DNA of 64,000 nt from Sphaerisporangium fuscum (GCF_018531465.1 NZ_JAHDTF010000042.1:1-64000), one strand, 5' to 3'. Shown: positions 28,547-38,282, counted from the first letter of the stretch. Notes: generated by a model not told the origin, from the letters alone. Numbers and translations are program-made.

Positions 28547-28894
28547 TTGAGAATCGCCGTGAGACTCATCGCACTGACCGGCGCCGCGGTGTTCGCCGTC
28601 GCGCTCAACAACACCAACGCGCAACGCTGGACGTTCACCGGCGGCACGCTGCGCAGCCAGAACAACAAGTGCATGGACGTCGCCTGGGGATCGCGCGACA
28701 ACGGCGCGGTGATCCAGATCGCGAACTGCAGCGGCAACCCCGCCCAGCAGTTCGTCCTGAGCGGCGCGGGCGACCTGGTCAATCCCCAGTCCAACAAGTG
28801 CGTCGACATCAAGGACTGGAACGGCAACGACGGCGCCGCGCTGATCCAGTACGAGTGCCACGGCGGCGCCAACCAGAAGTGGCACCGCGGCTGA
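28547..28894 (+). pseudogene. Signal peptide fused to part of a ricin-type lectin domain (deleted glycosidase)
   Basis: An open frame from TTG 28547 or GTG 28559 encodes a short signal-like segment (VRLIALTGAAVFAVAL) joined directly to NNTNAQRWTFTGGTLRSQ, the middle of a ricin B-type (CBM13) beta-trefoil. The two remaining repeats (KCMDVAWGSRDNGAVIQI, KCVDIKDWNGNDGAALIQYE) are intact with QxW motifs. The first repeat starts mid-way, and no catalytic domain is present. It looks like a secreted glycoside hydrolase that lost its catalytic region by in-frame deletion, keeping its promoter, signal peptide and lectin end. It could still be expressed as a small carbohydrate-binding protein. Confidence 0.7.
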
Positions 28895-28914
28895 TCCGCA
28901 CCCGCCCGTGCCTC

Positions 28915-28943
28915 TGCCGCCCGTCCGGCACGGCCGGGCGGCA
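28915..28943 (+). terminator. Stem-loop after the lectin remnant
   Basis: Inverted repeat TGCCGCCCG / CGGGCGGCA, 9-bp stem with an 11-base loop that can itself pair, 20 bases after the stop codon. There is no U-tract, as usual in actinomycetes. Confidence 0.5.
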
Positions 28944-28958
28944 CCACCGCAGTCCCCT

Positions 28959-28990
28959 TACGCCGGGCGGAGAGCCGTCCGCCCGGCGTA
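28959..28990 (+). terminator. 13-bp stem-loop 22 bases before the GH64 start
   Basis: Perfect inverted repeat TACGCCGGGCGGA / TCCGCCCGGCGTA with a 6-base loop. It may terminate the lectin transcript or act as a leader hairpin for the beta-glucanase gene whose ATG is 22 bases downstream. Confidence 0.6.
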
Positions 28991-29011
28991 CAGGCCCAGA
29001 GGAGTCGAGGT

Positions 29012-31015
29012 ATGCGCCTCTTGTCCCGACGATGGCGGCCGGCTCTGGTCGCCGCCCTGCTACTCGCCCAGGCGGTCGTCCTCACGACCGGTCAGCAGGC
29101 GGCCGGCGCCGCCGTCTCGCAACTGCCGTTCACCGTCACCAACAACTCCGGCCGCGGCGACGCGACCTACATCTACGTCACCGCCCGCACCCCCGCCGGC
29201 CAGCAGGGATACGTGGACGCCTCCGGCACCTGGCGCGCGTGGAGCTACCCGCCGTCGATCCCCAACGGCCCCGTCCCGGCCCCCGACGTCTCGATCCCCG
29301 GGCCGGGAAACGGTGCGCGCAAGACCATCACCTTGCCGCCGAACCTGGTCGGCGGCCGCGTCTACGTGTCGATGGGGTCCAAACTGCAGTTCTTCCTGAC
29401 GACGAACGGCCTCGTCGAGCCGGCGCCCTGGGTCGCCAGCGACCCGAACGCCAACGTGCTCTACGACTGGACGGAGTTCGCCCGGCAGAGCAACGGCGGC
29501 ACCGGCATCTTCATCAACTCCACGACGGTCGACATGTTCGGCATCCCGCTGACGGTCAGCGTCACCGACACCTCCAACAACACCCAGACGCAGGGCATCA
29601 CCGGCAACCGCACCGGCATCCTGAACGCCTTCGGCGCACTGGGGTCGCCCTGGTCGGGCCTGACCACGACACGCTCCTCCGACGGCCTCCCGCTGCGGGT
29701 GCTCGCGCCCCCGCACGGCATCGAGAGGGGCTCGTTCTCCTCGACCTACCTCGACTCCTACATCGGCGACGTGTGGTCGTACTACGCCACTCACCCGTTG
29801 ACCGTGCAGACGTCACTGGGCACCTTCACCGGCACGAACTGGACCTTCAGGGGAACCTCCGGCAACGTGATCGGCACGATCCCGAAGCCGACGACCCGTG
29901 AGGTCTTCGCCTGTTCCGGTGCGATGCAACCGCCGAACCAGCCCGACCAGGCCGCGATCCTCGCGGTCGGCGCGCGCGTGTGCGCCGGGCTGAACCGGGC
30001 CACACTGTCGACGGCGAGCCGGGTCATGTACGACACCCAGCCGACGACGGACCCGACGAAGTTCTACGGGCAGTCCGCCTCGAACCTCTACAGCAAGACC
30101 ATCCACGCCAACTCGCTGAACGGCCTGGCGTACGGCTTCCCGTACGACGACGTCGGCAACTTCGGCCCGACGATCGACCAGCCCGACCCGTCGTCCGCCG
30201 GCATGACCATCGGCGGCTTCGGCACGGGCGGCGGCGGCACCGTAAGCGGCCAGCCGATCACCGGCCCAGGAGGCAAGTGCGTGGACGTCGCGGGCGACGA
30301 CACCGGCGGCAACGGCGCGCCGGTGCAACTGTGGGACTGCCAGTCGTACGCCGTCGACCAGCACTACACGATGGTCGGGAACACGCTGCGCACCTTCAAC
30401 GGCGGCAAGTGCCTCGACGTCGTGGACAGCGGCACGGCGAACGGGTCGAAGGTGCAGATCTGGGACTGCTCCGGCACCGGGAACCAGCAGTGGGTGCTGC
30501 AGTCCGACGGCTCCATCAAGAACACCGGATCCGGCCGGTGCCTCGACTCCCCCGGTGGCGCCACCGGCAACGGCACGCGGCTCCAGATCTACGACTGCAA
30601 CGGCAGCGCCGCCCAGCGCTGGACGTTCCCCGGCGGGGCGAACATCGCCGGCCCCGGCGGCAAGTGCGTCGACGTCGACGGCGACGACACCGGCGGCAAC
30701 ACCACGGCCGTGCAACTGTGGGACTGCCAGTCGTACGCGAAGGACCAGTTCTGGACCTGGAACGGCCAGACGCTGCGCACCCTCGGCCGCTGCCTCGACG
30801 TGAAGGACGGCGCCACCGGCAACGGGGCCGTGCTGCAGCTGTACGACTGCAACACCACGGGCGCACAGAACTGGGTGCAGCTGTCCAGCGGTTCCATCCA
30901 GAACCCGCAGTCCGGCCGCTGCATCGACGCCCCCGGCGGCAACACCACCAACGGCACCCGCCTACAGCTCTACGACTGCAACAACACCGCGGCCCAGCAC
31001 TTCACCGTCCAGTGA
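29012..31015 (+). CDS. Secreted GH64 beta-1,3-glucanase with two ricin-type lectin domains
   Basis: A 667-residue exported enzyme. A signal peptide (about 1-34, ending QQAAGA-AV) precedes a GH64 catalytic domain (about 38-405; laminaripentaose-producing beta-1,3-glucanases). LYDWTEFARQ with Glu near 155 and STTVDMFGIPLT with Asp near 174 are the candidate catalytic acids. After a Gly-rich linker (GGFGTGGGGTVSG) come two beta-trefoil CBM13 domains (about 415-540 and 545-667), each with three repeats carrying QxW/QLWDC motifs. The enzyme would attack fungal cell-wall or storage beta-glucan. A GAGGAG ribosome binding site precedes the ATG. The lectin remnant upstream is a related domain. Confidence 0.93.
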   Translation: MRLLSRRWRPALVAALLLAQAVVLTTGQQAAGAAVSQLPFTVTNNSGRGDATYIYVTARTPAGQQGYVDASGTWRAWSYPPSIPNGPVPAPDVSIPGPGNGARKTITLPPNLVGGRVYVSMGSKLQFFLTTNGLVEPAPWVASDPNANVLYDWTEFARQSNGGTGIFINSTTVDMFGIPLTVSVTDTSNNTQTQGITGNRTGILNAFGALGSPWSGLTTTRSSDGLPLRVLAPPHGIERGSFSSTYLDSYIGDVWSYYATHPLTVQTSLGTFTGTNWTFRGTSGNVIGTIPKPTTREVFACSGAMQPPNQPDQAAILAVGARVCAGLNRATLSTASRVMYDTQPTTDPTKFYGQSASNLYSKTIHANSLNGLAYGFPYDDVGNFGPTIDQPDPSSAGMTIGGFGTGGGGTVSGQPITGPGGKCVDVAGDDTGGNGAPVQLWDCQSYAVDQHYTMVGNTLRTFNGGKCLDVVDSGTANGSKVQIWDCSGTGNQQWVLQSDGSIKNTGSGRCLDSPGGATGNGTRLQIYDCNGSAAQRWTFPGGANIAGPGGKCVDVDGDDTGGNTTAVQLWDCQSYAKDQFWTWNGQTLRTLGRCLDVKDGATGNGAVLQLYDCNTTGAQNWVQLSSGSIQNPQSGRCIDAPGGNTTNGTRLQLYDCNNTAAQHFTVQ

Positions 31016-31022
31016 CCTCCGG

Positions 31023-31053
31023 CCCCGGCTCCGGCGCACCACCGGAGCCGGGG
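31023..31053 (+). terminator. Terminator of the GH64 gene
   Basis: Perfect 12-bp inverted repeat CCCCGGCTCCGG / CCGGAGCCGGGG with a 7-base loop, 7 bases after the GH64 stop codon. Confidence 0.75.
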
Positions 31054-31098
31054 TGCCAGGTGCAGGTCGGTTTGATCGTTTTCGTCTACAGTGAGACC

Positions 31099-31605
31099 GT
31101 GTGGTACGCGCTCATCCTCGCGGCGCTGCTCGTCGCCGTCGCGGCCGTCGCGGTGGTCGCCGCCCGGCGCAGGTTCGTCGTCGTCCAGGTGAGCGGATTG
31201 AGCATGTGGCCGACGTACCGTCCGGGTGACCGGGTGCTGGTCCGCCGCACCGCCGGGAGCGAGGTGCGGCGCGGTCACGTGGTGGTGTTCGAGTCGGCCG
31301 GCCGCTCGGAGTGGAGCTCCGGTCCACTGCCCCCACCCGCCGCGGGGGCCTGGACCATCAAGCGGGTGGCCGCCCTGGCGGGCGACCCTGTGCCGGACGA
31401 CGTGGTGCGGGCGGTGGCGGCGCAGCCGGGTGCGATCGTTCCCGAGGGTGCGCTCGTGGTCCTGGGAGACGGCGCCGAGTCCAGCGCCGACTCCCGCATG
31501 TGGGGCTACCTACCGGCCGACCGCGTACTCGGCGTCGCCGTACGCAGACTGTCACCCGGTCCCTCGTCCCCCGACTCCGAGCCATCGGCGTTCCCGGTCC
31601 CGTAG
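31099..31605 (+). CDS. S26-family signal peptidase (peptide-maturation candidate)
   Basis: A 168-residue membrane-anchored serine protease of the signal peptidase I family. One N-terminal TM segment (VWYALILAALLVAVAAVAVV) is followed by the catalytic Ser box VSGLSMWPTYRPGD, the Lys box WTIKRVAALAGDPVP and the C-terminal box VVLGDGAESSADSRMWG, so the Ser/Lys dyad is intact. The GTG at 31099 lies 6 bases after a -10-like TACAGT (31087-31092), so the mRNA may be leaderless. It converges on, and overlaps by 100 bases, an ABC exporter gene next to a small Cys-rich peptide gene whose leader ends in an A-x-A site. It is therefore the likely leader-removing protease. A housekeeping role is less likely given its small size and setting. 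Confidence 0.88.
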   Translation: MWYALILAALLVAVAAVAVVAARRRFVVVQVSGLSMWPTYRPGDRVLVRRTAGSEVRRGHVVVFESAGRSEWSSGPLPPPAAGAWTIKRVAALAGDPVPDDVVRAVAAQPGAIVPEGALVVLGDGAESSADSRMWGYLPADRVLGVAVRRLSPGPSSPDSEPSAFPVP

Positions 31606-33425
31606 CCGTCGGCGTCGCCGGTCCCGTAGCCGTCGGCGTCGCCGGTCTCGTAGCCGCTGGCCTGCAGGATGAACAGGCGGGCGTACTCGCCGCCCGTCGC
31701 CATGAGCTCGTCGTGGGTGCCGCGCTCGGTGATCCGGCCGTCGCTCAGCACCACGATGAGGTCGGCGTCCCGCACGGTGCCGAGCCGGTGCGAGATCAGC
31801 ACGCTCGTCCGGTCACCGCGGTAGCGCCGCAGGCCGGTGTGCACCTCGTGCTCCGCCTCGGCGTCCAGGCCCGAGCTGGGCTCGTCCAGGATGAGCAGGT
31901 CCTGGCGCCGGCGCATGTACGCGCGGGCCAGGGCCAGGCGCTGCCACTGCCCGCCGGACAGACTGACCCCTGCCTGGCCGCCACGATCGCCGAAGATACG
32001 GCTGAGCATGGTGTCGTACCCGCGCGGCAGAGCGGCGATCGCGTCGTGGACGCCCGCCTGGCGGGCCGAGTCGTGGACGTGGTCACGGTCACCGGCGGCG
32101 GTCAGGTCGCCCAGCATGATGTTCTCGGCGGCGGTGAGGTCGTAGTCCATGTGGTCCTGGAACACCGCGCCGATCCGCCGGCGCAGGTCGTCCGGGCTCG
32201 CGTCGCGCAGATCCACTCCGTCCCAGGTGATCCGCCCCCGCACCGGGTCGTACAGCCTCAACAGCAGCTTGACCAGCGTGCTCTTGCCCGCGCCGTTCAC
32301 CCCGACGAGGGCGACCGTGCCGCCGGACGGGATGAACAGGTTCACCCCGCGCAGGATCCAGGGGTGCTCCTCGCTGTAGCGGAACCACACGTCGCGCAGT
32401 TCGATCCCCTCGCGCAGCGCGGGCAGCGCGGTGGGCACGGCCGGAAGGGGCAGGTCGGGCTCGGACTCGACCACCGCCGTGTAGTGGCCGAACATCAGCA
32501 GCGCGTTGTGGGAGTCCGCCCACTGGCTGACGATCGTGGTCATGGCCGCCTGCACTCCGGCGACGGCCGCGACGAACACCGTCACGTCGCCCACGGTGAT
32601 GCCTCCGGAGGCGGCGCTCAGGATGGCCCACAGCAGGCCTCCGGCCGCCACGGCGCTCCCGACCAGCGCCATCACACCCTGGCTGCGCAACGTGCGACGA
32701 TCGACGTCCCTTTCGGTGAGGTTGATCCCGCGCACCTCGTCGAGCATCCGCGTCCGCAGGAAGTCGCCCAGACCGAACAGCCGCACCTCCTTGGCCGCCT
32801 CCGGCCGGGTGAGGAGCTCGCCGTAGAACACCTGGCGGCGCATGGCGGGGGTCATCTCCCACATCACCTCGGCCCGCCGGCGACTGAGCACGAGCTGGAT
32901 GCGTACCGACGGCAGCGCGGCGACGACGATGACGGCCACCATGAGCGGGTTGACGGCGAACAGCGTGGCGACGAAACCCGACAGGGTGATGAGCGCCTGG
33001 CCGATCGCCAGCGCGCCGACGACCAGCCGATCGGGTGCGTTGTGGCTCGACTCGTACGCCAGCTGGAGGGTGTCGTGGAAGGCCGGGTTCTCGAAGCGGC
33101 TGAGCCCCGGGTGGCGGTTGACGGCCCGGAACAGCCGGTCGTAGATGAGCAGCCGCAGTGACCTGCGCAGTTGCCCCTCCACGTACACCGACACGTGCGG
33201 CAGCACGATGGCGGCCAGGCCGGCGAGCGCGAGGCCACCGCCCAGCGGCAGCAGGGCGACCAGCCCGCCGCCCCTGGCCAGCGCGTCGAGGACCAGCTTC
33301 GTCAGCCAGGCGGTCGCGACCGGCGCCACGCCGGTGAGGACGCCGAGGACGGCCGAGCCGACGGTCGCCGCCGGGTGCGCCTTCCAGGCGAGGGCCGCGA
33401 CGACCTGGACACGCCTGAGCAACAT
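31506..33425 (-). CDS. ABC exporter (fused membrane and ATPase domains)
   Basis: A 639-residue half-transporter acting as a homodimer. The N-terminal membrane domain (about 1-310) is followed by an ATPase domain with Walker A VGVNGAGKST, signature SLSGGQWQRLALARAY, Walker B LLILDEPSSGLD and H-loop ISHRLGTV. There is no C39 peptidase domain, so any leader must be removed by another protease; the S26 peptidase converging on it is the candidate. The last about 45 residues are a Gly/Asp-rich repeat (GDADGYGTG) encoded by 24-bp tandem repeats. The neighbouring small peptide gene 160 bases upstream is the presumed substrate. Confidence 0.9.
   Translation of the reverse strand: MLLRRVQVVAALAWKAHPAATVGSAVLGVLTGVAPVATAWLTKLVLDALARGGGLVALLPLGGGLALAGLAAIVLPHVSVYVEGQLRRSLRLLIYDRLFRAVNRHPGLSRFENPAFHDTLQLAYESSHNAPDRLVVGALAIGQALITLSGFVATLFAVNPLMVAVIVVAALPSVRIQLVLSRRRAEVMWEMTPAMRRQVFYGELLTRPEAAKEVRLFGLGDFLRTRMLDEVRGINLTERDVDRRTLRSQGVMALVGSAVAAGGLLWAILSAASGGITVGDVTVFVAAVAGVQAAMTTIVSQWADSHNALLMFGHYTAVVESEPDLPLPAVPTALPALREGIELRDVWFRYSEEHPWILRGVNLFIPSGGTVALVGVNGAGKSTLVKLLLRLYDPVRGRITWDGVDLRDASPDDLRRRIGAVFQDHMDYDLTAAENIMLGDLTAAGDRDHVHDSARQAGVHDAIAALPRGYDTMLSRIFGDRGGQAGVSLSGGQWQRLALARAYMRRRQDLLILDEPSSGLDAEAEHEVHTGLRRYRGDRTSVLISHRLGTVRDADLIVVLSDGRITERGTHDELMATGGEYARLFILQASGYETGDADGYGTGDADGYGTGNADGSESGDEGPGDSLRTATPSTRSAGR
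31581..31652. repeat. Three 24-bp tandem repeats at the overlapping 3' ends of two genes
   Basis: Units at 31581-31604, 31605-31628 and 31629-31652 (core gccgtcggcgtcgccggt) differ at only a few bases. They encode the Gly/Asp-rich tail of the ABC exporter on the minus strand, and the first unit also encodes the last residues of the S26 peptidase on the plus strand. Repeat number could vary by slippage without breaking the exporter frame. Confidence 0.85.
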
Positions 33426-33510
33426 CGGCGTCCCTTACGGTTCAGCGGTACGAGGTGCGAACGGCCGCGCGAGAGGCACGGGCGAGGGGGATCCCTCCGG
33501 AGAAGATGAA

Positions 33511-33541
33511 CGGCACGGCACCGTCCCGCGGCGCCGTGCCG
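33511..33541 (-). terminator. Stem-loop between the peptide gene and the ABC exporter gene
   Basis: Perfect 9-bp inverted repeat CGGCACGGC / GCCGTGCCG with a 13-base loop, 45 bases after the peptide stop. In peptide operons such a partial terminator keeps the precursor mRNA more abundant than the exporter mRNA. Confidence 0.55.
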
Positions 33542-33585
33542 CTCCGTCGTCAGCGGTGCCAGGGCTCATACCTGGCCGCTCACCA

Positions 33586-33732
33586 TCAGTAGTGGCAGTA
33601 CGTCTTGCCGGCGTAGACGCAGCACGTCATGCGGCGGAGAGTGTCCCACCAGCAGGCCTCGGCCTTGGCGGTGGTGGTGGGCAGAAGCTTGTCGAGCAGA
33701 CGGTCGCTCATCTTGTTGAGAGCACGGAGCAT
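33586..33732 (-). CDS. Small Cys-rich exported peptide precursor (48 residues)
   Basis: ATG 33730-33732 is preceded at 8 bases by a near-perfect AAAGGAGG site (33741-33748), far stronger than most sites here, which marks this as a real gene. The first 26 residues form an amphipathic leader (MLRALNKMSDRLLDKLLP) ending TTTAKAEA, with an A-E-A signal-peptidase-like site. The predicted 22-residue core starts CWWDTLRRMTCC, has four Cys (27, 37, 38, 46) and many aromatics, and ends YCHY. Beside it are an ABC exporter, an S26 peptidase and a divergent regulator. No lanthipeptide, YcaO or radical SAM enzyme is near, so the core may only be disulfide-bonded. It could be a bacteriocin or signalling peptide; the activity is unknown. 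Confidence 0.85.
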   Translation of the reverse strand: MLRALNKMSDRLLDKLLPTTTAKAEACWWDTLRRMTCCVYAGKTYCHY

Positions 33733-33872
33733 GGGGGGATCCTCCTTTGTCGCGGACCTCGGCGGCGAATATCGGCGGTACCGAAAGGGCGATATGTGTG
33801 ATCACCGCCACCGACAGCAGGACAATAACCACTGAAGATCAAGTGACGTAAGCATGCGGGACTGGCATCAAA

Positions 33873-33888
33873 CTGCACGACCGTGCAG
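33873..33888. promoter_or_regulatory. Inverted repeat in the peptide/regulator divergent promoter region
   Basis: CTGCACG-AC-CGTGCAG, 7-bp perfect arms, lies in the 216-base region between the divergent peptide and LuxR-type regulator genes (76 bases before the regulator start). It is a good candidate binding site for that regulator. Confidence 0.5.
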
Positions 33889-33948
33889 CTTAGTGTCATT
33901 TCGGGCAATTCACCCGTTTCTGCCATATTTGCCATACTCGGAGCCCAC

Positions 33949-34878
33949 ATGAGCCTCAGCAGTCTCGGTCTGACCGCACTCGATGAAACCGTTTACCGCG
34001 CTCTGCTGAGCGGCGGCGAGGCGACCGCGGGCGACCCGGACAGCGTCAGGGCGGCACTGGAACGGCTCGTGGCACTGGAACTCGTGCAGTTCGATGCGGA
34101 CGGCCGACCCGTCGCCGTCGAACCGGAGATCGGGATCAGCCGCCTGATCAGACGGCGCCTGCTGGAGACGAGCGCGGAGCAGCGCCGCATCGCCGCCGCC
34201 TGGGAGACGCTCCACATGCTGAACGCGCGGCGCCGCGAACCCGACCGCGTTGTCGTCATCGAAAGAATCGACGGCGCCGACCAGGTCGACGAACGGATCT
34301 GGTCCCTGGCACGCGACGCGCAGGAAGTGCTGACCGTGCACTCCGACCAGCGGCGACCGCGCACGGACATGCTGCCCACCTACCTCCAGCGGCTCGGCGA
34401 GGGCGTGCGATGGCGCACCATCGTCTCCCGGAAGAGCCTGCTGGACCTGGAACTCCTGGAGTACAGCATCACCCTGCACCGGGCCGGCGACCACCATCGC
34501 CTCGTCGACGACGCCGGGCAGCAGATGGTCATCGTGGACCGCTCGGTGGCCTTCGTCCCCACCGTGCCGGGCGAGGGCTACTGCAGCGTCCTGATGATCT
34601 CCCAGGCGGGCGCCGTCGCCACAATGGTGAACCTGTTCGAGCGGGTGTGGGCCCACGCGGTGGACCTCGAACCCCAGCCCGCCCCCGTCACCCTCGCCCC
34701 CAGGGAACGCCAGGTGCTACACCTACTGTCCAGCGCCGACAAGGACGAGATCGCAGCCCGAGAACTCGGCATAAGCCTACGAACCTACCGCCGCCACGTA
34801 GCCGACCTCCTCGACCGCCTAGGCGCGGCGAACCGCTTCCAGGCCGCCCTCCTCGCCAAGCAACAGGGCTGGATCTGA
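33949..34878 (+). CDS. LuxR-type regulator with N-terminal TrmB-like winged helix
   Basis: A 309-residue regulator. The N-terminal segment (LGLTALDETVYRALLSGG, about 4-85) looks like a TrmB-type winged helix, and a middle ligand/phospholipase-D-like segment follows (about 95-235). The C-terminal LuxR/GerE HTH is clear: LAPRERQVLHLLSSADKDEI, AARELGISLRTYRRHVADLL. Regulators of this build commonly stand beside small-peptide biosynthesis loci in actinomycetes. It is divergent from the Cys-rich peptide gene and probably controls it. The ATG at 33949 fits the family better than an upstream in-frame ATG at 33883, which lies within the promoter region. Confidence 0.85.
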   Translation: MSLSSLGLTALDETVYRALLSGGEATAGDPDSVRAALERLVALELVQFDADGRPVAVEPEIGISRLIRRRLLETSAEQRRIAAAWETLHMLNARRREPDRVVVIERIDGADQVDERIWSLARDAQEVLTVHSDQRRPRTDMLPTYLQRLGEGVRWRTIVSRKSLLDLELLEYSITLHRAGDHHRLVDDAGQQMVIVDRSVAFVPTVPGEGYCSVLMISQAGAVATMVNLFERVWAHAVDLEPQPAPVTLAPRERQVLHLLSSADKDEIAARELGISLRTYRRHVADLLDRLGAANRFQAALLAKQQGWI

Positions 34879-34984
34879 AGAAACCTTCTCCCCCTCGGCA
34901 CCATGCTGCCGCCGTGTCGGCGAATCACCGCCATTTCGATGCGCGGCGGGGTGGTCCACGATGATCGCCGGCCGGTCAACCGAC

Positions 34985-36061
34985 CTACGGTTCGTCGAGG
35001 ACTATGTCGCACGTCGCCTGGGGCGCGACGAAAGCGCACAACTGTGCGGCCTCGGTCAGCAGGGCGTCGCGATCCGTACGCCCCAACTTGGTGAACGGCT
35101 GGATGCGCAGCGTTCGATCCCGGATCTGCCAGGTGCCCTGCCACATGCCATCGACCAGGAAGGTACCGGCGGTCGCGCCGTTGCCCGGCGGGAGCGGCAC
35201 GGAGCGGTTGCCGGGGATCACTCGGGTGCGGTCCTTGTGTGACAGCAGCAGATTGTCGTATTCGGGCAGGAACCGGGGTGGGGCGGGCATGTCCTCAGAA
35301 GGCCGGGGCGCGTCGGGGAGGTCATAAAGCGTCTGCCGCTCCTCTCCGCGGAACGCCCGCAATGGCAGCCGCTCCACCACCTCGCGCAGGCGGGTCAGCC
35401 CGGACCACAACTGGATGTCCGCGACACTCGCCGGACCGAACGCGCCGAGATAGCGCAGTACCAGCTCATCGACCGGCACCGAACGCAGCGGCGCGCCCAG
35501 CCAGCTCTCCACAGGTGTCCATGCGGCGGGGCCGTTCTCGCCCCAGATGCCCCGCGGCGGCACCTGGCACAGCGCGATGTGATGCGTCGCCGCGTAGGCC
35601 AGCGCGCTCGGATCGGCGTCCGGCCGGCGTTCCACGAGCAGCTCGCCGAGCTCACCGCGGGTGCGCGGCTGCTCCTCCAGCAGCCGCTTCGCCTGCCTGA
35701 GCAGCGCATCCCGGTCCACTCCGTCGATACCGCGGCGAAAGTGCGCGCGGAACCCGGCGGCATGCAGCGGATAGAACAGCGCGCGCCAGCCCAGGCAGTC
35801 GCGTGCGCTGACGAGATGCACGGTGTTGCGCATCAGGTGCAGCCGTACCACCTGACGTTGCTCGGTCAGCGCCGACAGCTCGTCCGCCGTGAAGTCTTGA
35901 AGGCGGGCCCACAATCCCACGTACGGGGCGAGCGGCGCCTGGGACTGCATCCCGCCCAGGTGCTCGATCGCGTCGATCGCCCGTGCCGGCGCTCGTTCCA
36001 GAAGGTACTGGCGAGCCAGCGTGGCCCGGTTGAGACGACGCCGGCTCAGTACATCGGTCAC
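34985..36061 (-). CDS. AlkZ-like winged-helix DNA-binding protein (HTH_42 family)
   Basis: A 358-residue protein of the AlkZ/AlkX family, built of winged-helix domains, some members of which are DNA glycosylases for interstrand crosslinks or bulky alkylated bases. The N-terminal GGMQSQAP carries the Q-x-Q motif that AlkZ enzymes need for activity. The family also shows [29 protein letters not shown] and the late [15 protein letters not shown], all present. It starts at GTG 36061 within the stop of the epoxide hydrolase gene, so it is translationally coupled to it. That pairing suggests a shared role in coping with electrophilic epoxides or alkylating agents, but this is inference. Confidence 0.82.
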
Positions 36062-37182
36062 CGCAGTGGCCCGAAGAAGGCCTGCAGGTCCGCCGCCAGC
36101 AGGGCCGGGGCCTCCATCGCGGGGAAGTGCTTGCCGCGCTGGAACTCGCTCCAGTGCGCGTCAGCCGGCGCGGGGACCAGCTTGCGCACCGTCTCGTCAC
36201 TGCCGAAGACCGCGAAGCCCTGCGGTACGGCGGGCGGCGCGCCCCAGTCGGACGAGTGCGCCTGCTCGTACAGGGTGTGCGCGGCGGTGGCGCCGGAGCC
36301 GGTGAACCAGTACAGGCTGACCGTGGTGAGAAGCTGGTCGCGGTCGACCGGCAGGTCGGTCCACTCGTGGACCTTCTCGGCGATCCAGGCGAGCTGCAGC
36401 AGCGGTGAGTCGACCAGGCCGTAACCGATGGTCTGCGGACGGCTGTTCTGGATCGCCAGGTAGCCGGAACCTTCCTTGCTGAACGCGTCCATCCGGCTGA
36501 GGATCAGCTTGTCGACCGGGTCGTTCTCGTCGAGCCGGCCGGCCATCCCCGGGATGAAGGTGGCGACGTTCGCGGCGGTCAGCGGATCGGTCACGACGTG
36601 TACGCCGATGACATGCGTGCCGTCGAGGCCGGCGACCATGCCCGACACGCCGGCGCCGACGTCACCGCCGTGGACGCCGTACCGCTCGTAGCCGAGCCGG
36701 CCCATCAGCTCGACCCAGGCGCGTGCGGTGCGGCCCATCGCCCAACCGGTCGCGCTCAGCGGGGTGGAGAAGGCATAGCCGGGCAGCGACGGCGCGACGA
36801 CATGGAAGGCCTGGCCCGCGGCAGGGTCGACCAGCGGCTCGATCAGGTGCAGGAACTCGGCGACGGAGCTCGGGAAGCCGTGGGTGATCAGCAGCGGCTT
36901 GGCATCGGGATGGTCGGACTCGATGTGCAGGAAGTGGATGCGCTGGCCGTCGATCTCGGTGGTGAACTGTGGGTACCGGTTGAGCCGTGCCTCTTGGGCA
37001 CGCCAGTCGTACTGCGTGCGCCAGTACTCGGCGAGCTCCTTCAGGTAGCCCAGGGGTACGCCGCGGGTCCACTCCGCGCCGGGCATCTCGCCGGGCCAGC
37101 GGGCGTTGGCGAGCCGGTCGTGCAGGTAGTCGACGTCGGGCTGGGGGATGTCGATGCGGAAGGGCTGGATGCCGTCGCTCAC
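36058..37182 (-). CDS. Epoxide hydrolase (EHN-type alpha/beta hydrolase)
   Basis: A 374-residue enzyme of the microsomal/juvenile-hormone epoxide hydrolase type. The N-terminal EHN domain ([33 protein letters not shown]) precedes the alpha/beta core. The core shows oxyanion motif HGFPSS, nucleophile Asp in HGGDVGAG and catalytic His in [10 protein letters not shown]. The GTG at 37182 is preferred because AAGGAG stands 7 bases before it; a longer ATG frame begins 63 bases upstream without such a site. It is the first gene of a two-gene operon with the AlkZ-like gene, divergent from a WYL regulator with an 8-bp inverted repeat between. Confidence 0.88.
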
Positions 37183-37255
37183 CGCGCTTCTCCTTGTCAA
37201 CGGGGCCGGTACGGCCGGACGTGCGATGGGAGCTCTTGTGCTCACGCGGAGAAGA

Positions 37256-37287
37256 CTAGGAACATTAACGGAAAGGATCGTTCCTAG
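37256..37287. promoter_or_regulatory. Operator between the epoxide hydrolase and WYL regulator genes
   Basis: Perfect 8-bp inverted repeat CTAGGAAC ... GTTCCTAG with a 16-base AT-richer spacer, 20 bases upstream of the WYL regulator start and 73 upstream of the epoxide hydrolase start. Probable binding site of the regulator for both directions. Confidence 0.6.
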
Positions 37288-37307
37288 ATTGTCGTCGGGA
37301 TCGAAGA

Positions 37308-38282
37308 ATGCTGGAAACTTCGGCGCGGCTGCTGCGCCTGCTGTCCCTGTTGCAGGCCCGGCGCGACTGGACCAGCACCGAGCTCGCCACTCGGCTCGGC
37401 GTCACCACCCGCACCATCCGCAATGACATCGGCCGGTTGCGCGCGCTCGGCTATCCGGTCGATGCGCGGCCGGGTGTGGCCGGCGGGTACCGGCTCGGCT
37501 CGGAGGGTGCCCTGCCGCCGCTGCTGCTGGATGACGATGAGGCGGTGGCGGTCGCGATCGGCTTGCGTACCGCCGCCAGCGGCTCGATCGCGGGGATCGA
37601 AGAGACCTCCATGCGCGCGCTGGCAAAGCTGCAGCAGGTGCTTCCCTCGCGGCTGCGCCGCCGGGTGAGCGCCTTCCAGACGTACGCGCTGCCGATGCCG
37701 TCACGCGGCTCGCAGGTGGATCCCGACGTACTGACCGTGATCGCGAGTGCGTGCCGGGACCATGAGCGGCTCCGTTTCGACTACCGGGCGCATTCCGGGA
37801 CGGCCAGCCGGCGCTCGGTGGAGCCGTACCGCCTGGTGAACGACCGGCGGCGCTGGTACCTGGTGGCCTGGGACGTGGACCGGGACGACTGGCGTACCTT
37901 CCGGGTCGACCGGATCGAGCCGCGGACGCCGACAGGGCCGCGCTTCACGCCGCGTGCGCTGCCGCCCGACCCGGAGATCATGGCGCAGGTGGCACGCGGA
38001 GTCGGCGAGGCGACCTGGCGGTACCGAGCCCGGGTGATCGTGGACGCGCCCGCGTCATACGTGCGGGGTCGGCTGCCGATCCCGGTGGAGGTGCAACCCC
38101 TGGGCGAGGAACGGTGTGCGTTCGAGCCGGGCTCGGACCATCCGGAGATGCTCGCCCTCTATCTGGGCATGCTGGACGCGGACTTCACGATCGTCGACTC
38201 GCCGGAACTGGTGGACGCGCTACGCGCACTGACGAGGCGCTATCAACGCGCGATCGACACCAGCCAGAAGACATCCGGCTGA
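37308..38282 (+). CDS. WYL-domain transcriptional regulator (YafY type)
   Basis: A 324-residue regulator. The N-terminal winged HTH ([34 protein letters not shown]) is followed by a WYL domain (about 135-215; [16 protein letters not shown], then WRTFRVDRI) and a WCX extension. WYL proteins sense nucleic acids or small ligands and often control stress or defence genes. It is divergent from the epoxide hydrolase/AlkZ-like operon, with the inverted repeat at 37256-37287 in between, so a role in inducing that operon after chemical damage is plausible. Confidence 0.88.

Follow-up and report, generated by a model that had tools for sequence, protein, structure and literature searches.

Cassette and precursor family

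We analysed a 64,000-nucleotide stretch of DNA from the soil actinobacterium Sphaerisporangium fuscum (GCF_018531465.1, NZ_JAHDTF010000042.1:1-64000; called the window here). A cassette at 31,099–34,878 encodes a 48-residue precursor peptide, an ATP-binding cassette (ABC) exporter, a stand-alone S26 signal peptidase and a LuxR-type regulator. An earlier reading made from the sequence alone had proposed these genes as an undescribed system for an exported peptide. The precursor and its parts are as follows, with positions counted from the first letter of the window.

33586..33732, minus strand: precursor peptide gene, 48 amino acids, MLRALNKMSDRLLDKLLPTTTAKA followed after the inferred cut by EACWWDTLRRMTCCVYAGKTYCHY (family conservation)
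33661..33732, minus strand: leader, residues 1–24 (alignment, hydropathy, AlphaFold)
33589..33660, minus strand: core, residues 25–48 (alignment, AlphaFold)
33741..33748, minus strand: ribosome-binding site of the precursor gene, AAAGGAGG (GGAGG-like site, retained in relatives)

The tiny gene at 33586–33732 is genuine and conserved. With tblastn against 343 genomes of the family, we found homologues in other genera (E values down to 5.6e-23, 77% identity), beside the same genes as in the window. The ribosome-binding site, the four cysteines and the aromatic residues named earlier (W28, W29, Y40, Y45, H47 and Y48, counting His) were all confirmed. In a 29-row alignment, D10, P18 and A24 of the leader and two core cysteines are invariant, and R11, L13 and A22 are near-invariant; within the four-cysteine clade, Cys27, Cys37, Cys38 and Cys46 do not vary. 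The window precursor scores 72.4 bits against the family profile (in which the window sequence itself is included), and it has the D10, P18 and A22-x-A24 leader residues and the even-cysteine core that define the family. The ratio of nonsynonymous to synonymous polymorphism (pN/pS) of the leader is 0.33 in the group of the window and 0.19 and 0.18 in two sister groups. In the same three groups the core is freer, at 0.80, 0.62 and 1.61, and this contrast was not seen in two further groups of near relatives. By these ratios, the leader evidently evolves under purifying selection.

The leader had been described as amphipathic, and its hydrophobic moment of 0.65, reached by 1.1% of shuffled sequences, bears this out. 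A Sec-type hydrophobic core was not found in it (the maximum 19-residue hydropathy is 0.1). An AlphaFold model built with 19 sequences places a low-confidence helix at leader residues 5–16 and folds the core into three short strands, with a predicted local distance difference test score (pLDDT) of about 80. Sequence and fold searches of the PDB with the precursor gave chance-level matches only, and Pfam and NCBIfam hold no family for any precursor tested. A sub-threshold match to defensins (0.0058) was not trusted. A scan of the genome contigs with the single precursor sequence returned no match because that search is seeded by short exact stretches only.

We took 20 regions around the best tblastn precursor matches and a second set of 20 around weak matches. 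The exporter is present in 19 of the 20 best-match regions, at 65–88% identity, which is also its identity to the sister cassettes of the four-cysteine clade. An S26 gene lies near nearly all of these precursors, with the cassette genes within about 3 kb. In the sole remaining region (L047), no recognisable exporter was found near the precursor. Most of the weak-match regions hold this cassette too, but their cores diverge far more. An alignment of the exporter membrane domain was used to fetch 80 named loci from one-per-species genomes; their genera include Nonomuraea, Actinomadura, Microtetraspora, Streptosporangium, Sphaerisporangium, Streptomyces, Micromonospora, Amycolatopsis, Lentzea, Nocardiopsis and others. 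Co-occurrence was counted in the 72 of these loci with enough flanking sequence. A family precursor lies within 2.5 kb of the exporter in 62 of the 72, and S26 is found in 62, a TlpA-like redoxin in 63 and MauE in 51. Over all loci, 128 matches to the precursor profile lie within 2.5 kb of exporters versus 2 in approximately 1 Mb elsewhere. A check named beforehand, the occurrence of the precursor family beside ABC–S26 pairs in actinobacteria, thus turned up dozens of genomes. The S26 gene stays with the cassette though its placement varies: downstream on the same strand, downstream and convergent, or upstream. The profile is matched at E ≤ 0.001 by 155 of the 347 genomes examined at the level of the order. 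When genomes were sampled evenly across the class, 19 of 395 gave a match at E ≤ 1e-5, and all of these belong to the family of the window or to one further genus. A Streptomyces clavuligerus plasmid carries two family precursors, annotated as hypothetical by RefSeq, beside MauE/DoxX, ABC and S26 genes.

Proposed export and cleavage, and the core cysteines

The two genes assigned to export and trimming lie downstream of the precursor.

31506..33425, minus strand: ABC exporter, a half transporter with a transmembrane and a nucleotide-binding domain (TMD-NBD; Pfam; Walker A, signature and Walker B present)
31099..31605, plus strand: stand-alone S26 signal peptidase, GTG start (one N-terminal transmembrane segment, Ser35/Lys88 dyad)

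Pfam assigns ABC_tran and, weakly, ABC_membrane to the exporter and finds no C39 peptidase domain on it, in agreement with the sequence-only reading, which saw no leader-peptidase domain there. The small S26 gene overlaps the 3' end of the exporter gene, and its dyad is intact, as had been stated. Ser35 and Lys88 are retained in 34 of 34 aligned homologues, and the protein bears the membrane anchor, the GxSMxPT serine box and the KR lysine box of Peptidase S26.

Leader removal by S26 after export had been proposed, with A24-E25-A26 as the end of the leader. That these genes occur together across genomes strongly backs the core proposal of an exported small cysteine-rich peptide with a peptidase-less exporter and its own stand-alone S26, but the position of the cut shifts. 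We rejected A24-E25-A26 as the cut site, as many relatives have P, V or T there at position 26. Because the conserved leader end is A22-x-A24 and position 26 is variable, we place the cut after A24; S26 most likely cuts after A22-K-A24, two residues before the site first read. The product would still be an exported small cysteine-rich peptide, but most likely one of 24 residues instead of 22 residues of approximately 2.75 kDa. The computed monoisotopic mass of the 24 residues, EACWWDTLRRMTCCVYAGKTYCHY, with two disulfides is 2954.22 Da.

Where an A-x-A is recognisable (112 distinct precursors), the core cysteines are even in number (4, 6, 8, 10 or 12) in 109 precursors and odd in 3 (binomial 9e-29, ignoring kinship). 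The spacing of the cysteines is not constant between subfamilies. A fixed leader, a changing core and an even cysteine number are as in disulfide-bonded secreted peptides, so we infer that the cysteines are paired. The two disulfides predicted for EACWWDTLRRMTCCVYAGKTYCHY follow indirectly from these statistics.

More than one precursor is present in 16 of 97 loci. The maximum is seven, at L074 (8579–14465), where seven family precursors, each with a different core, surround one exporter cassette. Precursor pairs at L065 (9772–10162) and L063 (9733–10123) have no family exporter within 10 kb; they are perhaps orphans served in trans.

We consider a route of ABC export, S26 cleavage and disulfide formation likely. 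The ribosome would make the 48-residue precursor, and the exporter would recognise its amphipathic, non-Sec leader and move it across the membrane. The membrane-anchored S26 would then cut after A22-K-A24 and free EACWWDTLRRMTCCVYAGKTYCHY, whose four cysteines would pair into two disulfides outside the cell.

The MauE/TlpA redox pair and its loss

Most sister cassettes have genes for a thiol-disulfide pair, MauE and TlpA. Pfam identifies MauE (PF07291, 3e-22) and AhpC-TSA (1e-7) in one sister cassette, and across the sisters TlpA retains C-x-x-C and MauE retains C-x-C. In such cassettes, the MauE membrane protein and the TlpA/MauD-like thioredoxin would make or proofread the disulfides. Neither was found in the window cassette. 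The earlier statement that no enzyme modifying a ribosomally synthesized and post-translationally modified peptide (RiPP) is present is right for classical enzymes; a dehydratase, cyclase, radical SAM or similar enzyme is no recurrent neighbour in 107 loci either. It overlooks a redox pair that the ancestral cassette had and that was lost here, with the following traces.

33422..33447, minus strand: deletion scar comprising the mauE end, intergenic bases and the tlpA start codon (26 of 26 nucleotides match L042)
33426..33585, minus strand: gap between precursor and exporter (aligns with the L040/L041 gap, which holds mauE and tlpA relics)

Fragments of tlpA and mauE are visible in the Nonomuraea relatives L040 and L041, and TlpA relics are seen in L040, L041 and L056. 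The former tlpA start codon of the scar is the exporter's own ATG at 33425. The 26-nucleotide scar runs from the last bases of mauE to the tlpA start codon, so a deletion took out the pair and passed the tlpA start site to the exporter. Judged by these alignments, the window copy is evidently a reduced cassette from which the MauE/TlpA pair was removed by deletion.

The exporter tree groups the window with Nonomuraea-type loci (6 rows, support 99). On this tree we count roughly six or seven separate losses of TlpA among the four-cysteine loci (L059; L092; L056; L055; the window together with L040 and L041; L048/50/51; L046); over the whole tree, TlpA must change state 9 times. TlpA is missing in 11 of 24 four-cysteine loci versus 1 of 66 with more cysteines, a test that kinship inflates. 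As the four-cysteine branch discarded the pair repeatedly, its simple members can presumably do without it during maturation or use a pair shared in trans. Oxidation of the window peptide would then be spontaneous or depend on other copies acting in trans from elsewhere in the genome; the latter is possible since TlpA/MauE copies, with weaker precursor relatives, occur on C11, C12 and C23.

The family cassettes elsewhere in this genome are L201 (C12), L202 (C23) and L203 (C11). The C12 cassette has a precursor, MauE, TlpA and S26, and no family exporter is nearby.

The lost pair and the scar might instead mean that the window copy is decaying and that, without MauE/TlpA, a working peptide is no longer made. 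The presence of a close four-cysteine precursor in 1 of 11 genomes of the genus, that of the window only, would agree with this. Yet the frames of all remaining cassette genes are intact, the catalytic residues are retained and the leader has kept a pN/pS of 0.33. Near relatives without the pair likewise keep intact genes, and the exporter now uses the start site that once belonged to tlpA, apparently as a working fusion. We regard decay as quite unlikely.

The same losses bear on a rival proposal for the peptide, a metal- or redox-active ligand whose cysteines would bind a metal or relay thiol chemistry with MauE/TlpA. Cysteine richness and the association with redox proteins are what this would predict, but the four-cysteine clade repeatedly lost the pair while retaining precursor, exporter and S26, the spacing is inconstant and the even parity fits disulfides. 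This proposal is quite improbable, and we retain the disulfide-bonded exported peptide.

Known systems, role and origin

Unmodified (class II) bacteriocins have a small precursor whose leader is removed on export, an ABC exporter that contains a peptidase and, in several cases, disulfides. The window cassette shares the small precursor and the exporter with them. Unlike them, it has no double-glycine leader and no C39 domain, and cleavage at A-x-A is assigned to a separate S26. Sublancin and other glycocins are disulfide-bonded RiPPs with dedicated thiol oxidoreductases. The sister cassettes resemble these in that dedicated thiol-disulfide proteins adjoin a cysteine-rich precursor and an ABC exporter, but they have no recurrent glycosyltransferase or modifying enzyme, and MauE/TlpA stand in place of Bdb- or thioredoxin-type partners. 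As with mauE/mauD of methylamine dehydrogenase, a MauE-family protein and a MauD/TlpA-like thioredoxin lie side by side in the sister cassettes, but no recurrent neighbour resembles the structural genes of that enzyme, and the partner here is a small cysteine-rich peptide.

The closest description, and the only text found in the open-access literature to connect MauE with cysteine-rich precursors, is that of decRiPPter (PMC7794033), which lists three mauE-containing candidate families from Streptomyces, one of them with mauD, having precursors of at least eight cysteines and no product; a disulfide role was proposed there for the mauE-linked families. A cysteine-rich precursor near mauE is also the arrangement of our sister cassettes, several of which combine mauE with at least eight cysteines, whereas the window has four cysteines and neither mauE nor mauD. 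In the relevant passages of that paper, neither an S26 peptidase nor a leader motif nor a peptide product is described. Judged by these descriptions, the decRiPPter MauE families are likely the family described here. The label "undescribed" was therefore nearly right: MauE/MauD-linked cysteine-rich candidates had been flagged computationally in Streptomyces in 2020 (PMC7794033), and no name, Pfam/NCBIfam family or experimental study of the family was found in the open-access literature.

On balance, we favour a distinct, uncharacterised class of disulfide-rich peptides that is widespread in actinobacteria, with an amphipathic A-x-A non-Sec leader, a peptidase-free ABC exporter, S26 and MauE/TlpA, in which the four-cysteine branch lost the pair some six to seven times. 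Several points weigh against the proposed route of export, cleavage and disulfide formation and the role assigned to the peptide. Kinship among the sequences inflates both the cysteine-parity and the co-loss statistics. The AlphaFold model of the precursor is of low confidence (predicted template-modelling score 0.35), and no PDB structure matches it at E ≤ 0.001. A bacteriocin role would predict a constant immunity gene, yet none was found among the neighbours. If the class is real, an untapped peptide family is annotated as hypothetical in many Nonomuraea, Actinomadura, Streptosporangium, Micromonospora and Streptomyces genomes. The fixed leader would be a simple search handle, export, trimming and folding would be testable with few genes, and the four-cysteine members, in which the redox pair was lost again and again, would be a natural experiment on when disulfide-rich peptides need a dedicated oxidase.

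The chances that the peptide serves in antagonistic, bacteriocin-like competition seem to us about even. We favour this role because the cores vary, the precursors multiply and BTAD/SARP activators adjoin part of the cassettes. Regulators of this type lie beside about a third of the sister loci, including L060 (7539–9479) and L068 (13335–14180); two examples were verified by Pfam. The lack of a constant immunity gene keeps a signalling role in view, in which the same export and maturation would yield a pheromone sensed by the producer or its kin, and the divergent LuxR-type regulator would couple its level to a cue of development or density. In favour of such a signal, regulators of several types adjoin the cassettes, and a palindrome is conserved in the shared promoter region. 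But the type of regulator is not the same in all clades, a constant receptor gene was not found, and the cores vary between species and within tandem arrays (seven in L074) more than expected of a species signal. A pheromone thus seems rather unlikely, and antagonism remains our preferred role.

The regulatory features of the window are the following.

33949..34878, plus strand: LuxR-type (GerE) regulator, divergent from the precursor (Pfam; best start ATG 33949)
33873..33888, no strand: palindrome CTGCACGACCGTGCAG between precursor and regulator (largely retained in six loci)

The regulator had been read as LuxR/TrmB; GerE/LuxR is above the Pfam cut-off and TrmB is below it (15.2 versus 25.6 bits). 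This regulator is present only in the window's own clade. A longer form starting at GTG 33883 was set aside, as the alignment of homologues begins at ATG 33949. The palindrome is a possible operator of the regulator.

DNA similarity to L040/L041 spans 31072–34878, which is Nonomuraea-like at 81–88%. The flanks at 28612–31036 (left) and 34973–38280 (right) match two congeners instead, and the edges of the cassette are sharp. The cassette (about 31072–34878) is most likely an acquired island of Nonomuraea affinity in Sphaerisporangium-type DNA, and the contrast between inside and outside suggests that its acquisition was horizontal and recent. The genes flanking it in the window encode a GH64 glucanase, an AlkZ-like glycosylase and an epoxide hydrolase.

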